Shown here: positions 38,269 to 64,000 of the stretch, piece by piece | Position numbering within the stretch: position 1 is the first letter of the stretch | How the letters are laid out: the number at the start of each line of letters is the position of its first letter | Origin: Halichondria panicea | Lineage: Eukaryota > Porifera > Demospongiae > Suberitida > Halichondriidae | Assembly (NCBI RefSeq): GCF_963675165.1 | Contig: NC_087380.1 | Span: 1,231,803-1,295,802, forward strand | Direction of reading: 5' to 3' | DNA length: 64,000 bases | Position numbers and translations under genes: made by a program | The notes under the pieces: generated by a model | What the model saw: the letters and a program-made list of their open reading frames with translations, nothing else | Databases searched by the model: none | Told to the model about the DNA's origin: nothing

Positions 38269-41200
38269 ATGAATAATGAACTCTTGGCTACAAGAATAAT
38301 GAGAATGTTCCCCTCAAGGTTATTTCTCTGCTGTCTGCTGGGAAGTGCTTCTCTTGTGTATGGACAGCCTTTGAGTGAGTTGATATAGATCATGCATAGA
38401 TACTATCATGCAGTCAGCTATAATTATGGTTAAGCTAATACTAACCTGTGCTATTGGATAGTAGATGAAACAAGTATTATAGGTTTGGTATCAGAGCATC
38501 GATTATTGTATTATGGCATACAGCTCGACTGGCAGCATCCCATGAGCCCGATGTCACTAACCACACTGGAGAAATCATCTCATTCTCTGATGTTGGATCA
38601 GGAGCTAGGGGTAATCCACGCCCCTGGATTTGCTACACCGAACACACTGATAGTGTATTGTGGCTGTTCCCCAATGGGAGTGCATTGCAATTTGAAAGTA
38701 GATTTGAGGCATTTGAGGACGAAGTGTTCATCAGAGATATTACTAATTTTGGCGTTGCTCTGTATCGTGGTCCCACACACTTCAGTCCTCATGGAGAACA
38801 CTGCTGTGTGAGGAGGACTGATGGTGTGGACGTTCATAGGAAATGTGTCACCTTCAGTGAGTGCTGACTATATTGTCTATATCCAATACTAACCCCCACC
38901 CCCACAGCTCCCTGCCCCACACTGATTCCCCTGTCTAATGGAATGATCTCATACAACCCAACCACCAACATAGCCACCTACACCTGTGACACTGGGTACA
39001 CCATCAATGGAGCTACTCCGATAACTTGTATGAGTGATGATACTAGTACTGGTACCTGGTATCCACTACCTACAGTTACTTGTACACGTGAGTACTGTAT
39101 ATACCGTCTTCTGATTATAGCGCCATGCACCATAATAGAAGTGCCAATTACTACAAAATGTTTTACTCTAATCGAGCGTTAAGTTCTGGAATTACTTTTT
39201 GCTGGCATTTAGAAAAGAAACGCTGAAATCGAGGCTATATATACATACGATTCATCTAAAGGAACAACTCCGTGGAACAGCTATTATTACTTTACATTGT
39301 ATCGCTAAACACCACTCGAAGCAGCAAAACTTGTTCTATTTGTGTGCCACTGAAAATTATAATTAATTTGTGTGGCTGCAATTAGAAGAAAGACTGTATA
39401 TAGTACTGCAAGCTGCATTCGAGCAATGCAAGCATACATTATTACACTTCTACTAGCTGTAATATCATTCTACTCTCAGCTGTGGATTGTGGCTCCCCAC
39501 CCACCATTGGCAATGGATCTGCTGGAGCACCCTCACCTGACACAACTCTTGGAGGGATGGTGACCTACACCTGTGGCAGTGGATATGAGGTCTCCACTGG
39601 AGTCACCACAGCAACGGCTACCTGTATGGCTAATAGGATGTGGGAGACTGTACCAACTTGTCAACGTATGTGAAGTTGATGCTGTCACTGATAATAGCTA
39701 CTGCATTGACCGTGTTCACCCACTCAGCTGTGGATTGTGGCCCCCCCTCCATTGGCAATGGATCTCTTGGCATATCCACTCCTGGTACAACTCTTGGAGG
39801 GATGGTGAACTACACTTGTTTCAGTGGGTATGAGGTCTCCAATGGAGTCACCACAGCAATGGCTACCTGTATGGCTAGTGGGACTTGGGAGCCTGTACCA
39901 ACTTGTGTGGGTAAGTCGTACAATTGTCCATATATGTAAATGTCATCAATTGCATCTCCCCACAGCTGTTGACTGTGGTCCCCTGAACCCCCCCTCCAAT
40001 GGAGCAGTGGACACATCCTCTGGAACCACCTTCATGATGACTGCTACCTACACCTGTAACACTGGATACAACATTGTTGGATCAGACACTCGGACTTGTG
40101 GTGAAGATAAAACATGGACTCCAGATGCCCCCACCTGTACACGTGAGTAGCATGACTGACTGTGTACACTGTATCCACTGTGTTCATAATTCACAGCTGT
40201 TGACTGTGGTCCCCTCACTGTTCCTACCGGACAAGTCAGTACATCCTCTGGAACCACCTTCATGAACACTGCCACCTACACATGTGATCATGGATACACT
40301 CTCAATGGTACATCAGATAGAATCTGTCAAGCTAATGGAACCTGGAGCCTAGCAGCACCTACCTGTGATCGTGAGTGCTTTAAACAAAACGTACACGGCA
40401 GCTATAACTTATTTTCTTATATGTTTTATTAGTCGTTGACTGTGGTCCCCTAAACGACACTGCCAATCGACAAGTCAGTACACCCTTTGGAACCACCTTC
40501 ATGATGACTGCTACCTACACCTGTAACACTGGATACAACATTGTTGGTAGTGAGAGCAGAACTTGTGGAGCAAGTGGAGTGTGGTCAGGAGAAGCTCCAG
40601 TGTGCAACTGTAAGATTAACGTTAACTGACAATCATATTGTGATTTGACCATTCTCTCCCAATCCAGTGATTCCTTTGAGCAATGGATCAATGAATATCA
40701 TTGCCAACAACTCTATCTTATCACTGGCGGCCATTGGATCCTCTGCCCTCACCTGTCGCACTGAGCTATCCACCTGCTGCAGAGGAGAGGACAACAACGG
40801 CAATGCTCTCGGAGGGTGGAGAGGACCAAATGGTGACAGCATTCCTGACTCAAACACTGATGGATTCTATGTGTCACGAGGTATGAGCTCCATTAGTCTG
40901 AACTATGCTGAGGGATCCAGTGAAGTAGCTGGTACCTACTGTTGTCAAGTGCCCAGGGAGAGTGGGGCAACCACTACACATTGTGTCATGGTTACTGGTG
41001 AGTGTGGTTGAATTATGCAACCACACTCACTCACAATTTTCTATATAAATCCCCAGTCTCTTCCCCTGTCCCTGTTGCTGCTATTGGTGGGGCTGTCGGT
41101 GCTATAGTGGTGGTGATTCTGGTGATCCTGCTCATCATATTCCTAGTGGTATTCCTAAGGTAAGCCATGCAGATGGTATATACAGTCATGTGCATTCATT

Positions 41201-44200
41201 GTCGATCAAGCTACAAAACAATTGTGTATCCCCAACAACCCGACAGCCTGTTCATCGTGTATGCAGTACCAGAATATAGCTTATATAGACACTGAATTTA
41301 ACAACGCAAAACTGATATTATTTCCATAGACACTCACGGAAGAAACAGTATGAACCTGCTGTAAAAAACTCTGTTCTCACTACTGCATATACCAAACATA
41401 GCGATGCCAGTGATGGGGGCGTGGCTACCATATCAAAAGATCAAAGTCAGTGCTGTTGATTAGCCTGGTGTGATGAATTTCACCACTTAAGACCTGTGTA
41501 TAATTTGTTAATATGTGCAGAGCCTACCATCACTGGCTTCTCAAGTGAGAGCAGGGCTAATGAAGGGGAGGAGGTGGTCATTAAGCCCAAGGTAGGAGGT
41601 CACCCTCCACCCAGTCTCACCTGGTACCACGATGGTAGGAAGGTGACTACAGACTATGCCACAGAACTGGACCAGGATGGTGGATTATCCTTCCCTAGTG
41701 TGGAGGCTAAGCATGCTGGTGAGTACAGGCTAGCGCTATACACAAGGTCTTATGATTGACCACAGCTGGGAATGTGTACAACTCTCTCTATTGTTAAAGT
41801 ATTCGGTATTGACCATAGCTGTGAAGTTCTAAATGTAATATTGAAAATAAAGTCTGGTTTGCTATTGATAACAACTTCTGGCGACTTATGGAGCGTGAGT
41901 ATATCCAGATGTAGTAGCAATATTACTCAAGCGGGAGATTTTCAACTAAAGTACCACCCACCCACTCAAAAGAACGCGGAAAGAATTATAACCACAGTTA
42001 TAAGTAGGTCATGACGTCATTCCCTCGTGCTGCATGTATGTACAGCTAACACAGCTCGACCTCTATGATTAGTAGACTACATTTGATGATATTCATATAC
42101 CTATGTTGATACGCAAGTAACCACAAATAGTGTTTTTATAAAGGATGCAAGTCCAGGTGAAACCGCCTGCTTGGGCGTGCTACAACATCCTGATATGACA
42201 TCGGAAATATTAAAGCCTTTGATGTGGTCTGCCAGTAGGCTATAAACTATGTTATATAGGAATGCTAGACATAATTGGAATATATAATGCAGTCTGGGTG
42301 TGTGTGTGGGTTAGACACACCACTAACTATTTTCCATTCTTCTGTGTGTGTGTGTACAGGTGTGTATAAGCTGGTGGCCAGTGGACCCTCTGGCACAGCT
42401 GAGAAAGAACTCCAGTTGATAGTGGCACTAGAGGGAGGGGGGGAAGAAGAGGTGACAGATAAGGTGGACCTCACTCCTATACCAGTGGATGGGTTTGGAG
42501 CGTATGTCACTGAGCAGCATGCTAATGGCAATAAGAAGTTTGCCAGTAACTATTTGGTGGGTTTAATACACGTGTTGATTCTACCAGCGTCTTAATGTGC
42601 TGTGTTGATTCCCTCCTCCACACCAGCTTAATATAATCTTGACTCCACACACTGCACAGGGTCTCGGTGGCAAGGAAGGAGAACACTCAACAGCAACTGC
42701 CAAACAGCACAAGGAGGAAAATAGATTTGGAAACATTCTTGTGTGTAAGTTCCTGATTTGATTATACTTCCTTATATTGTGGGTTCAAGCACACACACAC
42801 ACTGGTTTCCTGCAGATGATGACAACCTCATTATCCTAGACCCCATTCCTGGACAAGAGGACTGTCAGAGTGACTACATCAATGCCTGCTATGTAGACGT
42901 GAGTGTGTGTGATTTATTCATGATAACTAATGTTAGCTATGTATGTTCATCATGTTACCTTCAAATGTTGTTACCCTCTTGTCTGCAGGGTTTTGTCAAG
43001 CGAAAGAAGTTCATTGCTTCTCAAGGTATCAGTTTCATATATTTCACTAGAGCATAACTGTACAAACAAGACTATAAGTATGCACACTTGCTGTGTGCTT
43101 GCTTTTACAATCATATAACTACTGTTAAATGCTTCATTGCCTGTTTTCAATATGTCTATCCCTCCTCCCCACACAAAGGACCACTACCCAATACCCTGGT
43201 GGACTTCTGGCGCATGATGTGGCAGGAGAAACCACCCATAATAGTCATGCTCACCAACCTCGAGGAGAACAACAAGATCAAGTGTCAACAGTACTGGCCT
43301 GACAGTGGCAGTGTGAGCTATGGCCCCTTCACAGTCACCATCACAGACCAGCAGGTCCTGGCTGACTACACTGTCAGAAACCTACTACTTGCAGTAAGTA
43401 CACATTATGATGGCACATGTTGACATTTTAGGATTTTAGGATTGTGTTTCACATTGAGATGTTTTTTTGTCACAGATGAAAGGGGAAAGTGGGAAACCTT
43501 TCAAGACGACTCAGTTTCACTTTACGACGTGGCCTGATCACGGTGTGCCTGACTATGCCACGCCCATTCTTGCATTCCATCGTCGGGTTAAGTCCCAACA
43601 CAAGCCATCCAGAGGTCCCCTCCTGGTCCACTGCAGTGCTGGTGTGGGACGCACAGGCACTTACATTGCCATTGATAATGTCCTCGATCAGATCGCAACC
43701 GAGGGTATCGTCGATATTTCCGGGACAATTGTCAAATCTCGCAACCAGAGGATGAAAATGGTCCAGACCCAGGTAAGCACTATAGACAAGCTTACACAGT
43801 TAAAAGAATGTGTAGGGAACATTTGTACACAGTATTGTAAAGTAGTATTAATTTTTTATAATGTGTTTTGCCCCCACGCCCAATTCCTTTGAGAGCACAT
43901 GCGCTAACCATTAGCCAGATACCAGCTAATGCAGGATAACAATGTCCAGTCTAAGTGCCCTACAGTACATTATATATCAGTTGTCTGAATCGTATCAGGA
44001 ATGTTGTTAAGTGGCAGTCTGTAAAAGCTAGACATAATATGCTAATGTGTTGTCAGGTATATACAATATAAGTTCTTTTTAATTATGCCAACACTAAAAA
44101 TTGTTACCCGAGGCATGCGTGGGCGGCCACGGGCATAGTAGTTCGTTGGTTGTTTGTTTGTTTGTTTGTCTGTTTGTCAGATCTGAGTCTACTCACCTGG

Positions 44201-47200
44201 ATGCCACAGCATTTACAGCGTAGATAGCCTCAACACAACAAGTTCTTATAATATTGGCAGAGCTTTGTTGTCGAATACTAAGAAGCTTTTGCTCGTTGCA
44301 GCTAGCTAACTGCACGCAGCCTTTAGCCCTGTTTACACGCAAAGTAATGCGCATTGTAATCCAGATTAGATAATGCGCATTAGTGCGTTTACACAGCCAC
44401 GAAGCCAGTTGTGGTTTTATGCTGTGTAAACAGTCTGAACCGGATTAGTAACCTCTTGCAAAGTGCTTCAATTGGAAAAGAAGTAAGAATCTTGGAAAGA
44501 GGACCTTATGTAACAGTTTGGAGTGATCTGATGGCTCACAATAATAAAGTAAGTCAGTATGATAGTAGATCTAATGCCTGAGGCCTCCTGTGTTCTGAGC
44601 ATGCCTATATAGTAAGGCCTATTCATTGCTGAGTTACCAAATCCTGCTCATAAGCCTATATGCTTTGCTTTGCTTGCTATTATGGATGTTGTTATTGTAT
44701 CTGTTGGTTATTTAATGATGACAAGAAGTACTATGCTTAGACAACAAGCTGTAATTAAAAGTAAAAAGAATTCAGCAAGAAGAAGAACTCGTTTTTATGA
44801 GAGACAGGCTCAAGAACGTTTGCTGTTTGCTATGACAATGTCTTTAGCAACAGCCAGAATGTCCTCAACACCAAGAACTATCTGGACAAGAGAAAGAAGT
44901 TCTCAGTGGTGGGAGCGGGTTGTAATGGAAACGTTTACCCATCAAGACTGGATGCACAATTTCCGAATGAGCCGAGAGACGTTTTTATTCGTCTGCCAGG
45001 AATTAAAATCTATTGAAAAAAGAAATACCTCGATGAGGAAAGCCATTCCACTCCAAAAAAGGGTTTCTATCGCTCTATGGTTTCTCTCCACCAATTCTGA
45101 TTTTAGAACGATTAGCCATTTGTTTGGTGTCTCTAAAGCATCGGTTTGCCTCATAACCAAAGATGTGTATGTGCATTGTTGACCATCTACTTCCTAAGTA
45201 TATCCGTATGCCTTGTGGTGATGCATTGAAGCAAGTGGTGGCTGGGTTTAAAGAGAAATTGGGGTTTCCACAGTGCGTTGGAGCAATTGACGGTACACAT
45301 ATACCTATAATCTCACCACAAGAGTGCCCAGCCGACTATTACAACAGAAAAGGTTGGCATTCTATCATTCTCCAAGGATTGGTCGATCACAATGGTCTTT
45401 TCATGGACATTTACGTTGGCTGGCCAGGACGAGTCCACGATGCAAGAGTTTTCTCCAATTCCTCACTGTTCAGAAAAGGTCAAGAAGGATCATTGGTACC
45501 CACTTTGACGGAGATGATAGAGCAGTGTGAAATTCCACTCGTGATTCTAGGTGATCCTGCATATCCACTTTTAAAGTGGCTCATGAAGGCCTATCCCGAC
45601 ACAGGACGTCTCACCCTTGAACAGAAGACTTTCAACTATCTCCTTAGTAAAGCTCGAGTGGTTGTTGAGCATGCGTATGGTCGTTTGAAGGCTCGATGGA
45701 GATGTTTGATGAAGCGTAATGACACCAATATTTGTGATATACCTAACATTGTCTCAGCTTGCTGTGTTTTGCACAACATCTGTGAACTTCGAGGGGAATC
45801 ATTTGATGACGAGTGGATTGAGAGTGACTCATCATTTAGTATGATTAGACAGTCGGCATCTGACTCAGTAGATATTAGTGGTGACCAGATAAGGAGTGCA
45901 TTAACACAATATTTCAGTACATGATATTAATGTGACGTATAATTATAATTATATGTAATAAGGACTGTAATACTATGATTATAATTATAACGTTTGATGA
46001 TTGAAGTTAGTAATTCGAGTCTTGGTTAAATGATTGTGATGGTGGCGGGAAGTACTGTCTTGGCTGCTGTATCATCTGTCCAAGCATTTGCATCATCTGT
46101 AGTTGATGTGCCTGTTCCTCCTTTCTTCTCACGTCTTCTAATTTTCTCTCTTTATCCCATCTTTCTTCCTCTCTTTTTTCAAATCTTTCCTCTGCTTCTC
46201 TCTGGTAGCTTAAGAATGTCTCCGTCTGCCTCTCCATAGCCTTTTCTGTCTTGTTTTTTCTGGGGTTTTTTGTTTTAGGGGGAGCACCTGTGTGTGTAGA
46301 TTTTAAGTGTGTGCACTTGTATGTTTTCTATGAACTTACATTCATCTGTTTTCTCCTTTTCAGATGTACTGGCCTCTCCTAAGTATCAAGTGTATCATTA
46401 TAATTATTGTACCGTCTGTATCCTCCACAATCTTATCCACCCTTTCCTCCATCTCAGAGCTTGTGTCAACGAGGAAAGATGGAGCGGAGGCTGGTCGGTG
46501 CCCCAGAATCCTATCCAGCTCGTCATAAAACTTACATGTTTTCCTCCTTTCCCCAGTCTTGTTATTGCTATCCTTTACTTTTTTGTAGTTTGTTTTTAAG
46601 TTTTTAATTTTTATCCTACATTGCGTCCAGTCTCTTTCATATTCCTTTTTCTTCATTTCTTGTGCTATTTTTTCGTAAATTACTTTATTTCTTACAGCTC
46701 CGTCCAGTTGCTGCTGCAAGTCACTAGCTCCCCAGATAGCTATTAGTGCCTTCATTTCATTGTCACTCCAGTATGTGCCTCTGTTCATTGTCTTCTCTTC
46801 TTATAGGACTTCTTATGCCACAAATGAATTCTTTGCATTCCTTTAATGCGCTTGCAGCTGTTTACACTACTGTCTAAACCGCATTGATCCGGCTTCAAAC
46901 CACATCAGGTAGGCGGTTTACGTAAGCCGGTTTTGATAGCGCATTAGTGCGTTTAGACTAGACCTCGTTAGTAGTAATGCGCTTTACAATGCGCATTAGA
47001 TGCTGTGTGTAAACAGGGCTTTTGTTCAAGGAAGACTATATATTTACAGCTGAAGTGATCCCGTACCAGGAACAATGGAACAGGGTTACTAAAGTAGAAA
47101 GTTAGAATTATGATTTTGGCAGAGAATACTCCACAGCTACACCTCGCTTGCGCATGCGGACCGAGGCAGGAGCCATAAATTATTTAGGCTTATTTGCTGC

Positions 47201-50200
47201 CTTTGCTGTGATTCTGTTCCACATCTATAATTATACTAAAACTCCAACCCTCTAGCTCTTGTTATTTGCTGCTTATTGCACATTTATCATTGTTACACTC
47301 TTTTGTTCCTGTAGATCATGTCAACAGACATAACAATTTAATAATAATATAGGAGTGGCTATTTTAAGCTTACCTTTGCTTGCTTACTAGCCTGGCATAG
47401 CCAAAGAGAGCTAGCTGTGTTGTTTTTTCTGGCTGGTTCAGTGCTGCAGTACTAGGTGGAGGGAGGGGCTGACTAATTGCACAGAGAGGGGGAGTGGCTC
47501 TGTACCGGTTGCTTGGAGGGAGGGGCTGGCTGCTCATAATATTATTCTATCGCAAGGCTTTGAGTGTGGACTGGAGCCCTGCATGGTACGTGGTGTGGAC
47601 GAGCTCTCTTCTTCCTAGTTGTCTTCTTGTTTGAATAGTGTTGCTATGTGGTAGCCATGCAAGCTTATATAGCTGGATGCATAGCAACCAGTCAGCCAAT
47701 CAGATGAGACATATATCAGTTAATGCACAGTGCCTCGGGGTTTATGACAGTAAACCACACCTCTCAAGACATCATTCAAGGATGCCCTCACTAGTACTGC
47801 CCTCACTAGTACTGACAGCAATCAAGGAGCAAGCAGCTCTGGAGCAATCCCGAACAATGTGTTTCAAAACTGCAATGTGCATGTGTACCAAGCTCCAGTG
47901 AATTATGTACAACCTTCTATACAACCACCACAAACAGTAGCTGTTAATGCAGAGCTAGACTCTCTGCTTGATTTCGTTGCTGAAGACGTGCTTCCTTTTT
48001 AATCATTAATTTATGGTATGCACATACTGCTTATTATTTAATCATGCTTAATCATTATTTTTCTTTGTTTATTTTCCTTATCACACAATCATGTTAAATA
48101 TGTATTTAAACACGTGAAAAACATCCATTGTACATCTGTATTAACATTTTCCCTAACCACAGGGATCTGTATATGATTCCCAATCATTCCTATGTAATAG
48201 CAGGTTCTGTATCACAGTTATAAACCATTGTATACCTTAGCAACCACATAGCAACGGGCAAGAATTTAATTATCAATTACAAATTATCATGTCAACAGTC
48301 GAGGGTTAGCACTTTAGTGCTCTAGTTATCTTTAAGATCACGTGTATAGGTAGTCATTTATCTGCCTTTCTTGGGGAATTCTTTGGTGGTCCGAATCGTA
48401 TCAGGAATGTTGTGATGAACTTAAAGGCTAGACATAATAATTATGCTAATGTGCTGCAGGTATATATACAATATAAGTTCTTCTTAATTATGCCAACACT
48501 AAAAATTGTTACCCGAGGCGCGCGTGGGTGGCCACGGGTATAGTAGTCCATTGGTTTGTTTGTTTGTTTGCTTGTCTATTTGTCAGATCTGCATGAGTCT
48601 ACTCACCTAGATGCCACATCACTGCTCAAACAACCATTAATTATTATAATATTAACAGATTTTGCTTCGTTGTCGAATAAAAGCGAGCAAAAGCTAAGAA
48701 GTTTGAACTTGCACGTTGCAGCTAGCTAACTACACGCGGCCTTTATTCGAGGTAAACTATGTATTTACAGCTGAATTGATCCCGTATACCAGGAACAATG
48801 GAACAGGGTCACTAAAGTAGAAAGCAAGAATCATGACTTTGTGGTTGTTGCTTCTTAGCCCCAGAGCATACTCCACTCGCTTGCGCATGCAAACCGAGGC
48901 ATAATTAGCTAGGGGCCATATTATTTCTAAGACTCCAGGCTTTATTGCTGCCTTTGGCTGTGATTCTATTCCACCACAATGCATATTCTGATTATACTAA
49001 CTCCAACCTCTAGGTCCTGTTATTTGCTGCTTATTGCACATTTATCATTGTTACACTCTTTTGTTCCTGTAGATCATGTCAACAGTCGAGGGTTAGCACT
49101 TTAGTGCTCTAAGATCACGTGTATATAGGTAGTCATTTATCTGCCTTTCTTGCGGAATTCTTTACCATATAGAATATGTAAGCACAATGTACGGCATTTT
49201 TGGTTTTAATTTGTTTGAGTTGGTTGTTGTTGTTGTCTATATATATATAGCTTTTTGGTTTGTTTGTTTGTTTGTTTGTTTTTGTTTTGTTGTTGTTGGT
49301 GTCATTGGGGAGTACAGTATAAGCGACATGTGCATTATGCACAACCCTAGCCTTTCTCTCTTTGAGATAAAAACTGTTACAGTGAAACAGCTCACACACT
49401 GCCATTTTGATTCTACTGAGCATGCTCATTGCCCCAACCCCTCTTCCTATAGGACCAATATGTGTTCATCCACGATGCTATCCTGGAGTCAGTGACGTGT
49501 GGAGACACTCAGATCAGTGCTGCAGATCTGCGCAGACAGATACAGAAGATGTCATCAGTGGCCCCGGGAAAAGCTATCACAGACTTCCAATACCAATTCC
49601 AAATTCTGGAACAGGTATCTCCAAATCCGAATGAGGTCAACTGCAGTAGTGCATTGAGACACAAGAACCTGAACAGGGGAATACAGTACCTACCAAGTAA
49701 GTTTTTTAGATTTTAGAATAAACGATCTTTACCTGATTATATGTAAACTACCCTTTACCAACTCCACAGTTGAGAATCACCGTGTGTTCCTGAAAGGGGA
49801 GGACCCTGGCCGTGACTATATCAATGCCGTCTTTGTCAATGTAATACTAAATGTGTTTGTAAAGTGTGTTTGCAGAGCTACAGCACACTTTTTAATTGGA
49901 CTTTCGCAACACAAGTTAAATATAGATAACTTGTGTTAAGATATCTCTGGAAAAAACCACTTATACCCACACGCTTTTTGTCATAAAAATGGACAATTTG
50001 GACTCAAAATAAATCACTGATCCAATCACGCCATAATTATTGTAACACTCTATAATTACGTTGTTCAGTGTTCCCCCCTCCCTCCAGGGCTACAAGCACC
50101 AGAAGGCATACATCATTGCCCAGAATCCACTGAACTCAACTGTGCGTAACTTCTGGAAGATGATCTATGACAGGAAGTGTGCGGCTGTTGTGATGTTGAC

Positions 50201-51082
50201 TCCTCTCAGTGAGAATGGGAAGGTAAGAGATGGTCTCCATTAGAGGTTCTCCTTGTTGAGTGTGTGTGTGTGTGTAGGAGGCATGCTCCCAGTACTGGCC
50301 AGAGAGTGGCAATGTCACCTCCTTCGGTGAGTTTACCATCGATAACTTGGGGGAGGAAACCAACACTGGGTTCGTTATGAGGCAACTGAGCGTACTTAAC
50401 AAGAAGGTGTGTTATTCATAATAATCTTCAGTTGTTTCTTTATCGTTCCTTAATTTTTTTCTCCAGACAAAGCAAACTCTGCAAATAATTCAAATCCAAA
50501 TTCTTGATTGGAAGTCGACTGGTGCATGTGCAAACTTCAAGATTATAACTGACGTCAATGAGGAAGTTGTAAAGGTTCAAAGGAGGACTGGAAACAAGGC
50601 AATTGTGGTCCACTGCAGGTGTGTATTTTTTGTTACATAATAATGTGTTTAATATTGTGTTGTTTCCAGTGACACTGCGACCCGCTCTGGTATCTACTGC
50701 TCTGTAGCTACTACCATTGACCGTTGCAAAACAGAGGGAGTAGTGGATGTGTTCCAGGTGGTCAAGGCTCTCAGGGTCCACAAGCCAGGGGCAGTACCCT
50801 CAGTCGTGAGTTCATCTGCTGCTTAGAGCTATTATGAAGCCTGTACCACTTAATTACAAGCCAGACCTCTCAGCTAGCTGTAGAGAGAGGGCTATTATTT
50901 CACCATGCATTGCAATAGCTGTACATTACTTGTATTTCCTACCACACACTATACAGTCATTGTGTGTGTGCAGTGTATGGGTATTAATGTGCCACTCCCC
51001 CTCACAGGACAACTACAAGGATGTTTTCGAGGCCTTGTTGGTCTACTTGGACTCCTTTGATACTTACGCAAACTTTCTCTAA
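38269..51082 (+). CDS. PTP-A: receptor-type tyrosine phosphatase with Sushi and Ig-like ectodomain
   Basis: 25 exons: 38269-38374, 38524-38856, 38908-39087, 39480-39665, 39728-39910, 39966-40142, 40197-40370, 40433-40609, 40668-40997, 41057-41159, 41330-41445, 41521-41718, 42360-42556, 42660-42744, 42816-42898, 42989-43025, 43179-43393, 43476-43772, 49453-49696, 49770-49840, 50088-50222, 50278-50406, 50467-50618, 50670-50805 and 51008-51082. They total 4119 nt, or 1372 aa. The order is signal peptide (possibly starting at the ATG at 38305); Ig-like module with GEHCCVR (36-146); six Sushi domains (147-505); second Ig-like module (YCCQVP, 506-615); transmembrane helix (about 622-648); cytoplasmic I-set Ig lacking Cys (689-785); D1 (about 800-1059) with [18 protein letters not shown] and the MVQTQ Q-loop; D2 (1060-1372) with degenerate [11 protein letters not shown]1 should be active and D2 not. 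Long intron 43773-49452 hosts several insertions. Confidence 0.88.
43970..44335. repeat. Intronic repeat module, copy 1, left part
   Basis: The module begins TCGTATCAGGAATGTTG and includes AAAATTGTTACCCGAGGC, a (TTTG)n tract and TGCACGCAGCCTTTA. It is interrupted by the Harbinger element and resumes at 47023-47327. Further copies are 48393-49068 and 61340-61997. It is non-coding and of unknown origin. Confidence 0.8.
44670..45924 (+). pseudogene. Harbinger transposase (HARBI1-like DDE nuclease), frameshifted
   Basis: Two overlapping frames, 44670-45182 and 45163-45924, together cover a full-length transposase of about 415 codons. The first holds the basic N-terminus and a helix-turn-helix ([20 protein letters not shown]...GVSKASVCL). 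The second holds the DDE_4 nuclease: first Asp in [10 protein letters not shown], second in [12 protein letters not shown], Glu in [14 protein letters not shown]. The frame changes by one position around 45163-45182, where a stop ends the first part. The catalytic residues remain, but a complete protein needs either an unseen splice or repair of that indel, so this copy is probably inactive. Confidence 0.85.
46007..46788 (-). CDS. Harbinger Myb/SANT-like DNA-binding protein
   Basis: Two exons, 46413-46788 and 46007-46287, joined in phase 1 (657 nt, 218 aa). Residues 1-95 form a trihelix Myb/SANT-like domain starting [20 protein letters not shown], with [20 protein letters not shown]. Residues 145-195 form a charged coiled coil ([20 protein letters not shown]). 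The C-terminus is Gln/Pro-rich. In this superfamily the Myb-like partner delivers the transposase to the nucleus and the transposon ends (family knowledge). The frame is intact, unlike that of the transposase. Confidence 0.82.
47328..48285. mobile_element. 958-bp insertion flanked by 13-bp direct repeats
   Basis: ATCATGTCAACAG occurs at 47315-47327 and 48286-48298 and only once in the equivalent position of the second intronic copy (49069). The segment between looks inserted. It has no clear inverted ends. A long, variable target duplication suggests retrotransposition (inference). Near its centre an open stretch, about 47780-48002, ends in [18 protein letters not shown] and a stop, like the end of a captured coding exon. 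It is not otherwise recognised. Confidence 0.6.
48393..49165. repeat. Intronic repeat module, copy 2 (tandem duplicate)
   Basis: Repeats the module of 43970-44335 plus 47023-47327 without the insertions. It is followed by a second copy (49069-49165) of the 48286-48390 flank, beginning CATGTCAACAGTCGAGGG. It arose by local tandem duplication inside the PTP-A intron. It is non-coding. Confidence 0.82.
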
Positions 51083-54855: not shown

Positions 54856-57800
54856 GTTTAATTGGTGACGCCCACTCCATCACTGATTGATCAACAGTGA
54901 ACATTGCTAGCTAGCTAGCCAGCTAAACTTTTAATGCTAGCTTTTAGAACTAGAGAATGGCTACTGTAACTCCATTTCTCTGCTGTCTGCTGGGAAGTGT
55001 TTCTCTTGTATATGGGCAAACTTTGTGTGAGTTGATATATGCAGTGCAACTAAATACTGCAAACTAGAATAATAGGCTCTAGCAATAACCTGTAATCTAG
55101 ATCTAAATTAGATTTGGTACCAGACCATCAATCATTGCATACAGTTCGACTGGCATTACCCCCCGGCACTGATCATGACCGCACTGGAAAGATCATCTCG
55201 TTCTCTGATTTTGGATCAGGAGCTGCTAGTGATCCACCTGTCTTGTACTGCTACAATAACAACAATGCTGGTGTAGGGTGGCTATTCCCGGGGGGTACAG
55301 TGCCCACAATTTTCGATAGGGCTGCAGTTAATGACGAACTGTTCATCAGTGCTGCTTTTGGAGCTGTTGTTCTGCATCGTGGTCCCACACACTTCAGTCC
55401 TGATGGAGAACACTGCTGTGTGAGGAATAATGACAATGAACATAAGATATGTGTCACCTTCAGTGAGTATTGACTATAATATTGTCTGTGTCCAATACTA
55501 ACTCCTACCCCCCACAGCTCCGTGCCCCCCTGCCCCACACTGAGTCCACTGTCTAATGGAATGATCTCATACAATGCAGCCACCAACATAGCCACCTACA
55601 CCTGTGACACTGGGTACACCATCAGTGGAGCTGCTACTCCGGTAACTTGTATGAGTAATGGTACTAGTGCTGGTACCTGGTCTCCATCACAACCTGCAGT
55701 TATTTGTACAAGTAAGACTAGAGTAATAAGTAGTTCATTGTGTGTATAAGCTATGGCTTCCCAACACAGTCGTCACCTGCCCTGTCCTAACCCCCCTACC
55801 AATGGAACCTTGTCCACCACTAGTCGGGACTACCTCACTGTTGTTACATACAGCTGTGATACTGGCTATATCCTCACTGGTAATAGTGGTAGTGCTAGAA
55901 TATGTCAAGATACTGGTCTGTGGTCAGGAGTGGCACCAACTTGTCCACGTGAGTTAGCAATGGTGGGTTGGAAGTAATGGTGATCAAGCATCTCCCCACA
56001 GCTGTTGACTGTGGACCACTGACTATTGCCAATAGAACAGTGAACACATCCTCTGGAACTACCTTCATGATGACTGCTACCTACACCTGTAACACTGGAT
56101 ACCTACTCATTGGTGATACTAGTCGGACTTGTCAAGCTACTGGGTGGAGCGACAGTGCACCAACCTGTCTATGTGAGTAGCTTTCGACAACATTATGAAA
56201 TGGTCATTCATATTTTCTTTCACTGCAAGAACAACTCTTAAGTATAGTGTAAATTATTAATAAGTTTGTCTTTCTCTTTTGCACAGTAATTTGCCCAACC
56301 CTCTCTAATCCAACAAATGGAGTCATTCAATACAGTGACTCCTCTGTCCCCCGAGCAACAGCCTCCACCGCCAGATACAATTGCATAGCTGGCTACCAAA
56401 TCAGTGGGACAGTAGTGAGGATGTGTACTACCAGTGGATGGAGTAATAGCACGACTCCTACTTGTACAGGTCTGTTGTTTGAGTCACTGTCATACGTACA
56501 TGAGATTCTTTATTTCTGTACAGCCACTTGTAATGACCTCACTGTACCAGCCAATGGAATGATCAGCTACAGTCCAGCTACCACTCCCAGATTGCAGGGA
56601 GCCGTGGCCAACTACACCTGTGGCACTGGGTACGATATCTTTGGTCCCAGAACAAGTACATGTCAATCAGTCAATACCTGGAGTGGAGGAGATATTGTCT
56701 GTCAAGGTATCTTCCTTTATTGCTTGTCCCTTTAGTGTACATGACTTCTCTTACAGCAAGCTGTCATGCTCTCACTCTATCAAATGGTGACATCACTTAC
56801 ATCATGGACACCTCTCCTATTCCAGTGGATACGGTGGCTACCCATACCTGTAACGTCATGTTTGTGCTCTCCGGTGATGCTACCAGGACATGTACTAAAA
56901 GTGCTAGTGGAGGAGTGTGGAGTGGATCAATGCTAACATGTATTGGTAAGCATCTGTTATCAATTAAAGTTCCTATAACTATGGTATCCTTACAGGGACA
57001 TGTGAGGATCTACCCAATATCACCAATGGAGTGATTGTCTATTCATCAACCTCTCCACGTACTAATGGGAGTACTGCCACTTACTCTTGTGGGATGATGC
57101 TTATGTTGAGTGAAGACAGTATAAGAACATGTCAACCAGACCGTAACTGGACTGAGGCTGAGCCATTCTGTCAAAGTCAGTTCCCATATTATACATGTGT
57201 GTTACGTATAAGTGTTGATGTCATCTTTTATCACAGGAGTGTTCCTTCAATTCGGAGTGTTCACATTGGTAGCTGAGGCCAGTTCTCAAGTGCAGCTTGA
57301 CACCATTGGAGAGGGGGAGAGAGGACTGGTGTGCAGGACTGACCACCAACAATGCTGTAACGAGACCTCTAATGCTTCGTGGCTTAATCCCAATGGCACT
57401 GTTGTCCCTTCAACTTCAATTCGTGGAGACTCTAACTTCTATACAGACACTGGTGATGGGTTCATACGCCTCAACCTCATCAGAAACACCACCACTGCAA
57501 CTGGTGAATATTGCTGCCAAGTGCCAGTGGAGGGAGGAACTATCGAGAGATTTTGTGCACAACTATTCCTGCCTGCACCTCAAGGTATAGCTCAAAAACA
57601 ATACAAAACCGGTAACCATTAATTTTGTCTTATTCGCAGGCTTCTCTATTGCTGCTGTTGCTGGTGGGGCAGTTGGTGCTATAGTGGTGGTGATTCTGGT
57701 GATCCTGCTCATCATATTCATAGTGGTATTCCTAAGGTAAGCCATGCATATGGTATATACAGTCATACATTCATAGCTACAAAACAATTGTGTATCCCCA

Positions 57801-60800
57801 ACAACCCTGTTCATTGTGTATATGCAGCACCAGAATATAGCTTATATAGACACTGGCTTTAACAACACAACTGTTATTATTTCCATAGACGCTCACGGGA
57901 AAAAAAGTATGAACCTGCTGTCAAAAACTCTGGTCTCTCTACTGTATATACTAAACACAGCGATGATAGTGATGGGGGCGTGGCCACCATATCAAAAGAT
58001 TTAGGTCAGTGTCGCTGATGTAATGAACTTTACTACTTAAGACCTGTGTATAATTTATGTGTTAATATGTGTAGAGCCTACCATCACTGGCTTCCCCAGT
58101 GAGAGCAGAGGTAATGAAGGGGAGGAGGTGGTCATTAAGCCCAAGGTGGGAGGTCACACTCCACCCAGTCTCACCTGGTACCACGATGGTAGGAAGGTGA
58201 CTGCAGACTATGCCACAGAACTGGACCAGGACGGTGGATTATCCTTCCCTAGTGTGGAGACTAAGCATGCTGGTGAGTACAGGCTATACACAAGGTCTTA
58301 TGATTGACCACAGCTGGGAATGTGTACAACTCTCTCTATTGTTAAAGTATTCGGTATTGACCACAGCTGGGAAGTTCTAAATGTAATATTGAAAATAAAG
58401 TCTGGTTTGCTATTGATAACAGCTACAAAGGCTTTATGGAGCATGATCTTTCCAGTATATCCAGATGTAGTAGCAATATTACCCAAGCGGGAGATTTTCA
58501 ACTAAAGTACCACCCACCACTCAAAAGAACGCAGAAAGAATTATAACCGCAGTTATAAGTAGGTCATGACGTCGTGCCCTCATGCTGCATGTACGTACAA
58601 CTAATACAGCTCGACACGTTCTATGATTAGTAGACCACATTTGATGATATTCATATACCTATGTTGATACGCAAATAACCACAAATAGTGTTTTTATAAA
58701 GGATGCAAGTCCAGGTGAAATCAATCGCCTGGTTGGGCGTGCTACAACATCCTGATATGACATCGGAAATATCATGTTCCTTAAAGCCTTTGATGTCAGT
58801 AGGCTATAAACTATGTTATAATTATAGGGAATGCCCATATATGCATACAGCCCGGGTGTGTGTGTGGATTAGACACACCACTAGCTGTTGTCCATTCCTC
58901 TGCATGTGTGCATGTGTTTGTGCATGTGTGTGTGTGCAGGTGTGTATAAGCTGGTGGCGAGTGGACCCTCTGGCACAGCTGAGAAAGAGATCCAGTTGAT
59001 AGTGGTACCAGAGGGAGGGGAAGCAGAGGTGACAGATGAGGTGGACCTCACTCCTATACCAGTGGATGGGTTTGGAGCATATGTCACTGAGCAGCATGCT
59101 AATGGCAATAAGAAGTTTGCCAGTAACTATTTGGTGGGTTTAATACACGTGTTGATTCTACCACAGCGTCTTAATGTGCTGTATTGATGTATTGATTCCC
59201 TCCTCCATACCAACTTATATATTGACTCCACACATTGTACAGGGTCTCGGTGGCAAGGAAGGTGAACACTCAACAGCAATTGCCAAACAGCACAAGGAGG
59301 AAAATAGATTTGGAAACATTCTTGTGTGTAAGTTCTATACTTCCTTATAATTATTGTGGATTCAAGCACACACACACTACTATCTATTTATTTTGACTAA
59401 TGCTTTGTGCTAACCAAAATTAGAGGTTAATGATTGTTTTGTGCTTGCCACCTAGAAGAACCACATAGACCCATCCCATTATCAGATACTACCACCACAA
59501 AACCTAGCCCAGACAATACAGGCCTGTACCTTATAAATTAGGCCTCCCTCAAGGTCAGATTTAGTTTACACGAGTACACAGCCATGCACAAGCTAAGTTG
59601 AAGTATTACAGCAGCCAATATCAAGTCTAAGATAAGTTCTATACTTATGTCAGCATTACCTCAAATGTGAATATAGCTTACAATCAGCATGGCCCCAAGT
59701 GAATAGCTTCCAATAATTATTCAGTATACTAGTTGTTCTGAATGCAACAGATGAATGGGGAGGGTTGGTGCACCGTTAAAGACTCTTTAACCCATCATTC
59801 TCGGCTCTCAAGGCCGGGCATCTGTTTGCTTTTTTTGTTCCTGTTTGATTTCTTTCCGTTCTATATGTGTGTTTCACACATACACTTATTTACCTTTAGT
59901 GACACATATTATGACAGACATATACATGTGTGAATACCCATTTGCAACCTAGAAGGAGGTAAACAAACCATGCTGAGTAATTATAATGGATGAAGGCTGG
60001 ATTCCAACCATCGTATATATATTTTTATTAGAAGCTTTCCGTTTGATTGGGAGGGTGTGCGACTGATAATCCCTGCCCACCCCAATACCTTTTGTATACA
60101 CTTTAATCAAACACACACACACTGATTTCCTGCAGATGATGACAACCTCATTATCCTAGACCCCATCCATGGACAAGAGGACTGTCAGAGTGACTACATC
60201 AATGCCTGCTATGTAGACGTGAGTGTGTTTTTGTGATTTATTCATGATAACCAATGTTATAGCTACCATGCATGTGTTTTTATGTTCATTATGTTACCTT
60301 CAAATGCTGTTACCCTCTCGTCTGCAGGGTTTTGTCGAGCGAAAGAAGTTCATTGCTTCTCAAGGTATCAGTTTCATATATTTCACTAGAACATAATTAA
60401 CTGTACACACAAGACAGTAACTATGCACATTTGCTGTGTGCTTGCTTTTACAATCATAACTATTGTTAAATGCTTCATTGCTTGTTTTCAATATGTCTAT
60501 TGCCTCCCTCCCCACACAAAGGACCACTACCCAATACCCTGGTGGACTTCTGGCGCATGATGTGGCAGGAGAAACCACCCATAGTAGTCATGCTCACCAA
60601 CCTCGAGGAGAACAACAAAATCAAGTGTGAACAGTACTGGCCTGACAGTGGCAGTGTGAGCTATGGCCCCTTCACAGTCACCATCACAGACCAGCAGGTC
60701 CTGGCTGACTACACTGTCAGAAACCTACTACTTGCAGTAAGTACACATTATGATGGCACATGTTGACATTTTAGGATTGTGTTTCACATTGAGATGTTTC

Positions 60801-61339
60801 TTTGTCACAGGTGAAAGGGGAAAGTGGGAAACCTTTCAAGACCACTCAGTTTCACTTTACGACGTGGCCTGATCACGGTGTGCCTGCTGACTATGCCACG
60901 CCCATTCTTGGGTTCCACCGTTGGGTTAAGTCCCAACACAAGCCGTCCAGAGGTCCCCTCCTGGTCCACTGCAGTGCTGGTGTGGGACGCACAGGCACTT
61001 ACATTGCCATTGATAATATCCTCGATCAGATCGCAGCCGAGGGTCTCGTCGATATTTCCGGGACAATTCGCAACCAGAGGATGAAAATGGTCCAGACCCA
61101 GGTAAGTACTATATAGACACAGAAGCTTACACAGTTTAATAAGAATGTGTAGTATCGTAGTCACATGCATGCAGGGAAACATTTGTGCACAGTATTGTAA
61201 AGTGGTATTAAATTTTCAGTTATAATGTGTTTTGCCCCCACGCCCACTTTCTTTGAGAGCACATGCGCTAACCATTAGCCAGATACCAGCTAATGCAAGA
61301 TACAATGTCCAGTCTAAGTGCCCTACAGTACATTATATA

Positions 61340-61997
61340 TCAGTAGTCCGAATCGTATTAGGAATGTTGTGATGAACCTAAGTGGCAGTCTGTAAAAGCT
61401 AGACATAATATGCTAATGTGCTGTCAGGTAATCCCCGTATGTATACAAGATAAATTCTTTTTAATTATGCCAACACTAAAAATTGTTACCCGAGGCACGC
61501 ATGGGCGGCCACGGGCATAGTAGTCCGTTGGTTGGTTGTTTGGTTGTTTGTTTGTTTGTCTGTTTGTCTGTTTGTCAGATCTGAGTCTACTCACCTGGAT
61601 GCCACAGCGTTTACAGCATAGATAGCCTCAACACAACAAGTTCTTATAATATTGGCAGAGCTTTGTTTAGTCGGGCACCGCCGTCTCTACTGTTGCCCGG
61701 AAAGAGGTCGGGAATCAAGCCTATCCACAGTTTAGTAATTGTGGATAGGCTTGATTCCCGACCTCCTTCAAGGAGGGCGGCGGCGCTCGACTAAGCTTTG
61801 TTGTCAAATACTAAGAAGCTTTTGCTCGTTGCAGCTAGCTAACTGCACGCAGCCTTTATTCGAGGAGGACTATATATTTACAGCTGAAGTGATCCCGTAC
61901 CAGGAACAATGGAACAGGGTCACTAAAGTAGAAAGTTAGAATTATGATTTTGTGTGCAGAGAATACTCCACAGCTATACCTCGCTTGCGCATGCGGA
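61340..61997. repeat. Intronic repeat module, PTP-B copy
   Basis: Counterpart of the modules at 43970 and 48393 in PTP-A, duplicated with the gene. It preserves the empty site for the Harbinger insertion and is itself interrupted by a 128-bp element. Confidence 0.8.
61667..61794. mobile_element. 128-bp fold-back MITE with 7-bp target duplication
   Basis: The ends TTAGTCG and CGACTAA enclose long arms around GGTCGGGAATCAAGCCTATC. The 7-bp GCTTTGT is duplicated at 61660-61666 and 61795-61801. PTP-A lacks the insertion at the matching place (about 44263-44270). Confidence 0.88.
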
Positions 61998-62120
61998 CCT
62001 TTTTGTAACTTTGTCCGGTTTTTTACAATTTGTATGATGAAATTGTTATTAATTATTTCGCGCATGCGCATACAAAGTATACCAGGCCGCCTTTCTCTTC
62101 GCGGCCTGGAATCGAGGCTA
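61998..62120. mobile_element. Truncated right end of the CBE4-type TIR transposon
   Basis: 123 bp matching 13288-13400 (TTTTGTAACTTTGTCCG, GCGCATGCGCATACAA, ending ATCGAGGCTA). The left end is missing. Confidence 0.78.
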
Positions 62121-63071
62121 AGTATATATAAGCGACATGTACATTATGTACAACCCTAACCTTTCTCTCTTTGAGATAAAAACTGTTACAACAGTGAAAC
62201 AGCTCACACATGCACTGCCATATTGATTCTACTGAGCGCATGCTCATTGTCCCTCTCCCTATAGGACCAATATGTGTTCATCCACGATGCTATCCTGGAG
62301 TCAGTGACGTGTGGAGACACTCAGATCAGTGCTGCAGATCTGCGCAGACAGATACAGAAGATGCCATCAGTGGCCCCGGGAAAAGCTATCACAGAATTCC
62401 AATACCAATTCCAAATTCTGGAACAGGTCTCTCCGAATCCAAATGAGGTAAACTGCAGTAGTGCATTGAGACACAAGAACCTGAACAGGGGAATACAGTA
62501 CCTACCAAGTAAGTTTTTAGATTTTAGAATAAGTGCCTTTACCTGATTACATATAAACGACCCTTTATCAACTCCACAGTTGAGAATCACCGTGTGTTCC
62601 TGAAAGGGGAGGACCCTGGCCGTGACTACATCAATGCCGTCTTTGTCAATGTAATACTACGCACATGCATGCTAAGTGCATGTGCTGCAGAGCTACTGCA
62701 CACTTTTTAATTAGACTTTCGCCACACAAGTTAAATATTAACTTGTGTTAAGGAAACATGCAGGCCTGAAAAAACACCCACTTATATAGCTCATGCTTTT
62801 TGTCCATAAAAATGGACAATTTGGACCCAAAATAAATCACTGATCCAATCACACTGTAATTATTATAACACTATAATTTCAGTGGTCCCCCTCCCTCCCT
62901 CCAGGGCTACAAGCACCAGAAGGCATACATCATTGCCCAGAATCCACTGGACTCAACTGTGCGTAACTTCTGGAAGCTATGACAGGAAGTGTGCGGCTGT
63001 TGTGATGTTGACTCCACTCAGTGAGAATGGGAAGGTAAGAGATGGTCTCCATTAGAGGTCCTCCCTATTGA

Positions 63072-63073
<2 letters not shown>

Positions 63074-63125
<52 letters not shown>

Positions 63126-63126
63126 G

Positions 63127-63165
<39 letters not shown>

Positions 63166-63166
63166 A
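63074..63166. repeat. (GT)n (CGTG)n microsatellite in a PTP-B intron
   Basis: About 90 bp of GT followed by CGTG units directly before the acceptor of exon 63174-63302. The matching PTP-A intron has only a short GT run (50260-50275). Confidence 0.95.
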
Positions 63167-64000
63167 TGTGTAGGAGGCATGCTCCCAGTACTGGCCAGAG
63201 AGTGGCAATGTCATCTCCTTCGGTGAGTTCACCATTGATAACTTGGGGGAGGAAACCAACACTGGGTTCGTTTTGAGGCAACTGAGCGTACTTAATAAGA
63301 AGGTGTGTTATTCATAATAATCTTCAGTTGTTTCTTTATCGTTTCTTAATTTTTTCTCCAGACAAAGCAAACTCTGCAAATAATTCAAATCCAAATTCTC
63401 GATTGGAAGTCGACTGGTGCATGTGCAAACTTCAAGATTGTAACTGATGTCAATGAGGAGGTTGTAAAGGTTCAAAGGAGGACTGGAAACAAGGCGATTG
63501 TGGTCCACTGCAGGTGTGTATTTTTGTGAGTAATTATGTGTTTAATGATTAGTTGTTTCCAGTGACACTGCGACCCGCTCTGGTATGTACTGCTCCATAG
63601 CTACTACCATTGACCGTTGCAAGACAGAGGGAGTGGTGGATGTGTTCCAGGTGGTCAAGGCTCTCAGGGTCCACAAGCCAGGGGCAGTACCCTCAGTCGT
63701 GAGTTCATCTGCTTAAAGCTAGAGCCTGTATCCCTTAATTACAAGCCAGACCTCTCAGCTAGCTGTAGAGAGGGCTATTATTGCACCATGCATTGCTATA
63801 GCCGTGCATTACTTGTATTTCCTACCACACACTATACAGTCATTGTGTGTCTGCAGGTATTAATATGCCACTCCCCCTCACAGGACAACTACAAGGATGT
63901 TTTTGAGGCCTTGTTGGTCTACTTGGACTCCTTCGATACTTACGCAAACTTTCTCTAAAACTAAAATGGAAACTAGAACTGGGCGGCAGCTTTTGGGAGA

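Follow-up and report, generated by a model that had tools for sequence, protein, structure and literature searches.

Immunoglobulin (Ig) domains of receptors are usually taken as ligand-binding parts located outside the cell. In the receptor protein tyrosine phosphatases (RPTPs) LAR, PTPRS and PTPRD (type R2A) they are extracellular, carry both canonical cysteines and are followed by fibronectin type III (FN3) domains (compare the LAR-like receptor L045 below). I-set domains also occur in the cytosol, in titin, obscurin, palladin and myosin-binding protein C, where they often lack the disulphide; these are soluble muscle or cytoskeletal proteins, many of them with long Ig/FN3 arrays. Here we describe a 64,000-nucleotide stretch of the genome of the sponge Halichondria panicea (hereafter the window, C4:1231803-1295802), carrying two RPTP genes, PTP-A and PTP-B, in which an I-set domain is encoded between the transmembrane (TM) segment and the first phosphatase domain (D1). 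Specifically, PTP-A resembles the R2A receptors in its single TM, its tandem D1 and D2 domains and the presence of an I-set in the same protein, but this I-set is Cys-less and predicted to be cytosolic, and the ectodomain consists of six sushi repeats and two domains without a Pfam match, with no Pfam match to FN3 in the protein, in place of the Ig and FN3 domains of type R2A. With the titin group PTP-A shares an I-set fold in the cytosol, whereas its composition (one I-set, one TM and two PTP domains) is that of a membrane receptor phosphatase and not that of a titin-like giant, a soluble multi-Ig/FN3 array.

A further likeness is offered by AjNLR-new of the sea cucumber Apostichopus japonicus, which, according to the accessible part of PMC13133943, is likewise a membrane receptor with an intracellular Ig; it differs in being a NACHT-domain protein with two TM segments and not a phosphatase, and no homology is claimed. 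The preliminary description of this DNA knew of no described RPTP with the order TM-Ig-PTP, and our search agrees with it: none of the papers listed in full-text searches of an open-access library describes such a receptor by title or abstract. The layout is also absent from the treatment of R3 RPTPs, Amphimedon included, in the accessible part of PMC5336234. The word "phosphatase" does not occur in the main text of PMC5450542, on sponge grafting, or of PMC7385117, on the Ephydatia genome, and PMC6208332 holds one listing of a tyrosine phosphatase. A scan of a viral collection with the D1 exon gave a single marginal match of 12 residues.

PTP-A was re-modelled from the raw sequence as 25 exons on the plus strand (38299-51082), with GT-AG at the internal junctions, consistent phases and no internal stop. 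The predicted protein has 1,362 aa from the ATG at 38299 (an in-frame ATG at 38269 would add 10 aa) and is organised as signal peptide, Cys-containing domain, six sushi repeats, Ig-like domain, TM, basic linker, I-set, D1 and degenerate D2; Pfam recovered the six sushi repeats, two PTP domains and one I-set. Exon 1 (38299..38374) encodes the signal peptide, which was called by eye and stays under a hydropathy of 1.6, and exon 2 (38524..38856) an N-terminal extracellular Cys-containing domain matching no Pfam family. Exons 3-8 (38908..40609) encode the sushi (CCP) repeats (PF00084, six stretches, E 8.1e-43), and exon 9 (40668..40997) an extracellular Cys-rich domain, Ig-like by eye and again without any Pfam family. 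Domains of the exon 9 type were also observed in array I, the C1 copies, the C12 gene and cluster II genes, at 31-56% identity.

The TM segment is encoded by exon 10 (41057..41159), the sole hydropathy peak of the protein (maximum 3.9), and is directly followed by RHSRKKQYE and by the basic juxtamembrane segment of exon 11 (41330..41445; no Cys, no sequon). Strands A-E of the I-set are encoded by exon 12 (41521..41718) and strands F-G by the 5' part of exon 13 (42360..42424), while the 3' part of exon 13 (42473..42556) encodes a 28-residue linker ahead of D1, which we take to resemble the helix-turn-helix wedge of RPTPs. These boundaries of exons 10-13 bear out the TM-before-Ig order of the preliminary description, and the Ig strings it quoted were both found, the 16-residue one crossing the 41718/42360 join. 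Its Ig interval, 41521..42556, holds for the location of the domain at exons 12-13 and has to be shortened by the pre-D1 linker, 42473-42556. The intron 3' of exon 12 opens in frame (41719-41757), giving 13 residues that mimic an Ig F strand and then a stop; this is a coincidence at the donor site, and retention of the intron would truncate the protein.

D1 is encoded by exons 14-18 (42660..43772; PF00102), with WPDHG and the catalytic 10-residue motif, and the end of D1 together with D2 by exons 19-25 (49453..51082; PF00102 and splice model); the PF00102 match has an E-value of 1.6e-139. With its single TM and a cytosolic PTP domain carrying WPD and HC(X)5R(S/T), PTP-A has the features of an RPTP, and D1, whose catalytic residues are in place, is predicted to be an active phosphatase. 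D2 carries a 10-residue motif of its own and lacks WPD, the usual pseudophosphatase state of RPTP D2 domains, and is a predicted pseudophosphatase. The closest solved relatives of D1 are PTPRS (the best), PTPRA and LAR. A PIF/Harbinger-type DNA transposon lies within the D1/D2 intron, at about 44326-47020, and Pfam scans identified its DDE_Tnp_4 ORF (45157-45924, plus strand) and its Myb/SANT ORF (46360-46800, minus strand); inverted ends were seen by eye, and a repeat search with a 30-nt minimum returned none.

The second gene, PTP-B, spans about 54970-63958 on the plus strand and repeats the order claimed for it. Its TM exon (57643..57736 for the aligned part; alignment to PTP-A and TM scan) precedes Ig exon 12 (58075..58272; 95.5% identical to PTP-A, gapless) and exon 13, with strands F-G and the linker (58940..59133; 94.4%, one 3-nt gap). 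Exons 14-18 of D1 follow at 59243..61101, where gaps relative to PTP-A are multiples of three, and then the end of D1 and D2 (exons 19-25, 62265..63958, from alignment to PTP-A). Exon 21 of D2 (62905-63034) is 5 nt shorter than its PTP-A counterpart, so that D2 of PTP-B is either frame-shifted by a real lesion or misassembled. When the two genes were compared, PTP-A exons 4, 5 and 9 had no DNA match in PTP-B. Elsewhere in the window, positions 1-28000 carry on the minus strand one or more long genes with repeated Calx-beta-like and EGF-like exons, several of them near-copies by eye; one of the two ORFs scanned there passed the Calx-beta cut-off. In addition, a tandem repeat at 1688-2902 is open on both strands, with SSSDEDESTLPTESARSGKSRSR-type units and no Pfam match in the one frame scanned.

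Searching the genome (131.5 Mb, 39 contigs) with exon 12 gave 51 matches at E <=1, of which 37 are strong (E <=1.1e-27, 72-100% identity). Thirty-five of these copies lie on C4, in clusters of 18 (332-482 kb), 8 (533-771 kb) and 9 (1273-1377 kb), and two on C1. The exon-12 frame is open in all 37, and each of these loci also has an exon 13 match, that at L030 spanning only residues 27-65 and two further ones beginning at residue 4. The picture is that of about 35 clustered receptor phosphatase genes on C4 and two on C1, which diverge in the ectodomain and are homogenised in the Ig exons; we regard the clustered array as a candidate recognition receptor family.

Two divergent RPTPs outside the array share the same order. 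The gene on C3 encodes a TM, a basic juxtamembrane exon, a whole I-set in one exon, D1 and D2, with an ectodomain that by eye is FN3-like and Ser/Thr-rich; on the minus strand at 2490326-2490040, its Ig part shares 34% identity with PTP-A exon 12 and 30-38% with the array Igs. The second, at C4:519.8-524 kb (hereafter C4:520k), encodes a TM (519794-519919), an I-set and D1. Since the best 150 of 848 I-set candidates and the best 150 of 361 PTP candidates were scored, more such receptors may exist. Another RPTP group was noticed at C4:2.1-2.6 Mb, with about a dozen loci; L050 (C4:2092300-2095800), taken from this group, carries its Ig-like domains extracellularly and lacks a cytosolic one. In conclusion, the finding is larger than first noted: as read from the genome sequence, it is a predicted architectural variant of RPTPs present at 39 loci of one genome.

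The identity of the domain was assessed by profile search. The PTP-A I-set (residues 680-766, encoded by exon 12 and the first part of exon 13) matches PF07679 from end to end (profile 1-90 of 90) with 48.9 bits and an E-value of 6.9e-13, against a cut-off of 23.7; PTP-A stands here for array III, and the same cut-off is exceeded by an array I member (52.6 bits, 1-86), by C3 (52.9, 1-90) and by C4:520k (63.8, 8-90). The strand C Trp and the strand F Tyr of the I-set core are found as LTWY and GVYKL in PTP-A, IDWF and GIYDF in C3, and VTWT and GEYVV in C4:520k; the Tyr motif is altered in array copies L033 and L034, given the exon placement used. As the preliminary description had stated, both canonical cysteines are absent from the PTP-A domain, the alignment placing Pro at the strand B position and Leu at the strand F position. 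The strand B Cys is missing in 37 of 37 array Igs and the strand F Cys in all 36 assessed, 34 of which have the Leu of YKL; C3 lacks both, and C4:520k retains the strand B Cys and has Val on strand F. The cysteines of the B-F disulphide are usual for an I-set and not required. Among solved chains, titin comes first by sequence for the PTP-A Ig as well as for the C3 Ig, with the extracellular Igs of DSCAM, Roundabout, sidekick and LAR ranking close behind; the titin chain score adds up several Ig domains and the match is not specific. An AlphaFold2 run from single sequence on the exon-12 read-through piece (strands A-F, 78 aa) returned a poor model (pLDDT 60).

The side of the membrane on which the Ig lies follows from the position of the TM. 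In PTP-A, 19-residue windows with a hydropathy above 1.6 start at residues 601-626 only, and no second TM follows, the hydropathy maximum beyond the TM being 0.92. The 589-residue ectodomain contains 34 Cys and 10 N-X-S/T sequons, and the 179 aa of juxtamembrane segment, Ig and linker contain none of either; the counts are 5 Cys without a sequon for D1 and 7 Cys with 3 sequons for D2, so that sequons, present in the cytosolic D2, are no clean topology marker. Across the genome, a first scan found a TM-like segment (best 21-residue hydropathy 3.27-3.74) 5' of the Ig in 38 of 39 loci, and at the 39th (L037) the TM likewise lies upstream, about 1.2 kb away, in longer sequence; as a control, 600 random 1.3-kb pieces were drawn from the window outside its two known TM regions, and 10 of them reach 3.25. 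In 36 of the 37 array loci the TM and the Ig exon 3' of it are 257-888 nt apart, and three TM types can be distinguished. These observations bear on a possible misreading of the topology, in which the TM exon would be skipped or would not span the membrane, leaving the Ig extracellular or the protein soluble. Exons 10 and 11 together measure 219 nt and could be skipped in frame, which would yield a predicted TM-less isoform; skipping of exon 10 alone (103 nt, phase 1 in, 2 out), however, would shift the frame. With the TM preceding the Ig in 39 of 39 loci (37 in the array, C3 and C4:520k), no later TM in PTP-A and an Ig free of Cys and sequons, we consider such a misreading very improbable. 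Provided that the TM exon is retained, the PTP-A Ig thus faces the cytosol, and the proposal of a cytosolic Ig between membrane and D1 is supported.

By comparison, we read six RPTPs of the same genome that lack this domain: C12 (L044), the LAR-like L045, L047, L048, L049 and L050. No Ig was found between TM and D1 in any of them, either in the translations or with a profile built from ten Ig domains, which scans frames of at least 20 residues and could miss an Ig split into small exons. The profile hits in L050 (E 0.0098 and 0.058) both lie upstream of its TM, and those in L044 (0.95) and L045 (0.2) are antisense. L045 has three I-set matches 5' of its TM, recovered by this profile as well, with both Cys in each, which is the placement and the Cys content that a LAR-type receptor should have. 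In C12, D1 is preceded by VPVSQFGEFVSQHHAQRNKKFNDNF, a stretch with 48% identity to the latter half of PTP-A exon 13 (query 40-64). The pre-D1 linker is thus common to the array and C12, so the Ig-bearing and Ig-less forms differ by an insertion or deletion just 5' of it, and the Ig sits where the other RPTPs read here carry a juxtamembrane linker.

An Ig domain is about 4 nm long, and the cytosolic Ig might be a rigid spacer only, holding D1-D2 off the membrane with no partner bound. The difference by a juxtamembrane insertion or deletion ahead of a shared linker would suit this explanation, as would the absence of the Ig from six RPTPs; a bare spacer, however, should tolerate truncation or replacement, whereas all 37 copies keep an open exon-12 frame, including those where exon 13 is partial (L030) or starts at residue 4 (two copies). 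We therefore regard a spacer-only role as rather unlikely.

The history of the domain was approached through a tree of D1 sequences with 11 rows, of which three are half-length. In it, the array forms a group with C3 and C12 at support 100/99, the sole starred fork; C12 with the array (94/90) and the two array types (93/92) both fall just below the starred level, and C4:520k lies outside, near LAR and PTPRA without a resolved place. As C12 groups with the array and yet has no Ig, the Ig is not essential for this phosphatase type. The simplest reading suggests that the Ig was gained before the C3/C12/array split and lost in C12; alternatively, two gains may have occurred within the group. Searched against the genome, the C3 Ig finds array Igs first (E 1.5e-9; best other Ig 2.1e-5), several array III Igs matching it no better than non-array Igs do, and for PTP-A exon 12 the best match beyond the array is C3, narrowly ahead of the next (4.8e-5 vs 1.1e-4). 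The C4:520k Ig finds the Igs of a C9 gene first (E 7.4e-9), and none of its 11 matches at 1e-4 is an array or C3 Ig. Both Cys are present in each of the four C9 Igs that were read over their full length; because the C4:520k Ig is nearest to these Cys-bearing domains, it probably represents a separate gain, and Cys was probably lost repeatedly among the cytosolic Igs.

Within the array, the sameness of the Ig exons has to be read with caution. Using exons taken from BLAST matches (the ectodomain exon in 13 of 18 array I copies), mean dS in array I is 0.283 for exon 9 and 0.06-0.14 for D1 exons 15, 17 and 18, against 0.015 for exon 12 and 0.021 for exon 13, the lowest among the 11 exons measured. 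Between array I and III, dS ranges from 0.055 (exon 15) up to about 1 (exon 13). Mean omega in array I is 0.56 for exon 9, 0.17-0.19 for the D1 exons, 0.61 for exon 12 and 0.63 for exon 13; between array I and III it is 0.40-0.43 for the Ig exons and 0.19-0.25 for D1, and within array III (three copies) 0.28-0.43 and 0.20-0.45, respectively. Positions 41600-41719 are 97-100% identical per 30-nt window to one array I gene, whereas the flanks (41300-41599 and 41720-41989) are 17-70% identical; correspondingly, codons 26-65 of exon 12 differ from that gene by 1 synonymous and 3 non-synonymous changes, and codons 1-25 by 13 and 19. The simplest reading of this near identity over about 120 nt between array types is that it is due at least partly to gene conversion, so that little can be concluded about function from how alike the 37 copies are in their Ig core. 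Conservation of exon 12 as a proof of function is ruled out by this conversion-like tract.

The same data bring in the possibility that the Ig is a functionless passenger, an exon pair that entered the juxtamembrane region and spread by duplication and gene conversion. The lowest dS of array I falling on exons 12 and 13, the tract linking the array types and an omega higher in the Ig exons than in D1 would all agree with it. On the other hand, the C3 gene retains its Ig at 30-38% identity to the array Igs, C4:520k retains a still more distant one, and both score above the I-set cut-off; we judge the passenger explanation improbable. Between array types, the per-site rate of change in exon 12 is lower at non-synonymous than at synonymous sites (one pair compared, Fisher p 0.017). 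The case for a function of the Ig rests on the open frames, an omega below 1 between types and the intact, diverged domains of C3 and C4:520k.

On balance, we lean towards the view that PTP-A and PTP-B are single-pass RPTPs of a tandem array, in which a disulphide-free, titin-type cytosolic I-set serves as a docking and spacing module. The extracellular sushi/Ig-like part would bind a ligand and D1 would dephosphorylate substrates, while the Ig would fold between the TM with its basic linker and the pre-D1 wedge, where it may bind a cytosolic partner (scaffold or cytoskeleton) and so place or group the phosphatase under the membrane. Cytosolic I-sets of titin, palladin and their relatives are protein-binding modules that need no disulphide. 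According to the accessible part of PMC13133943, the intracellular Ig of the Apostichopus japonicus membrane receptor recruits fidgetin and binds actin. By analogy with these two cases, docking combined with spacing appears the most likely role of the domain, and it is the least certain step of the explanation.

A broader and more speculative proposal, which we put forward as doubtful, is that the class has two or more origins and expanded to about 37 genes; their diversifying ectodomains and converted Ig-phosphatase parts would make them recognition receptors, the Ig docking a common signalling partner. If true, this would be a family for self/non-self or microbe recognition that reports via one shared output. 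In either case, the sponge genome presents a receptor family in which the Ig is predicted to lie inside the cell, its disulphide lost, beside an enzyme, in at least two RPTP lineages of one genome. The array allows the reuse of an Ig as a cytosolic receptor module to be put to the test and, with variable ectodomains joined to uniform cytoplasmic Ig exons, is a candidate recognition system in an early-branching animal.
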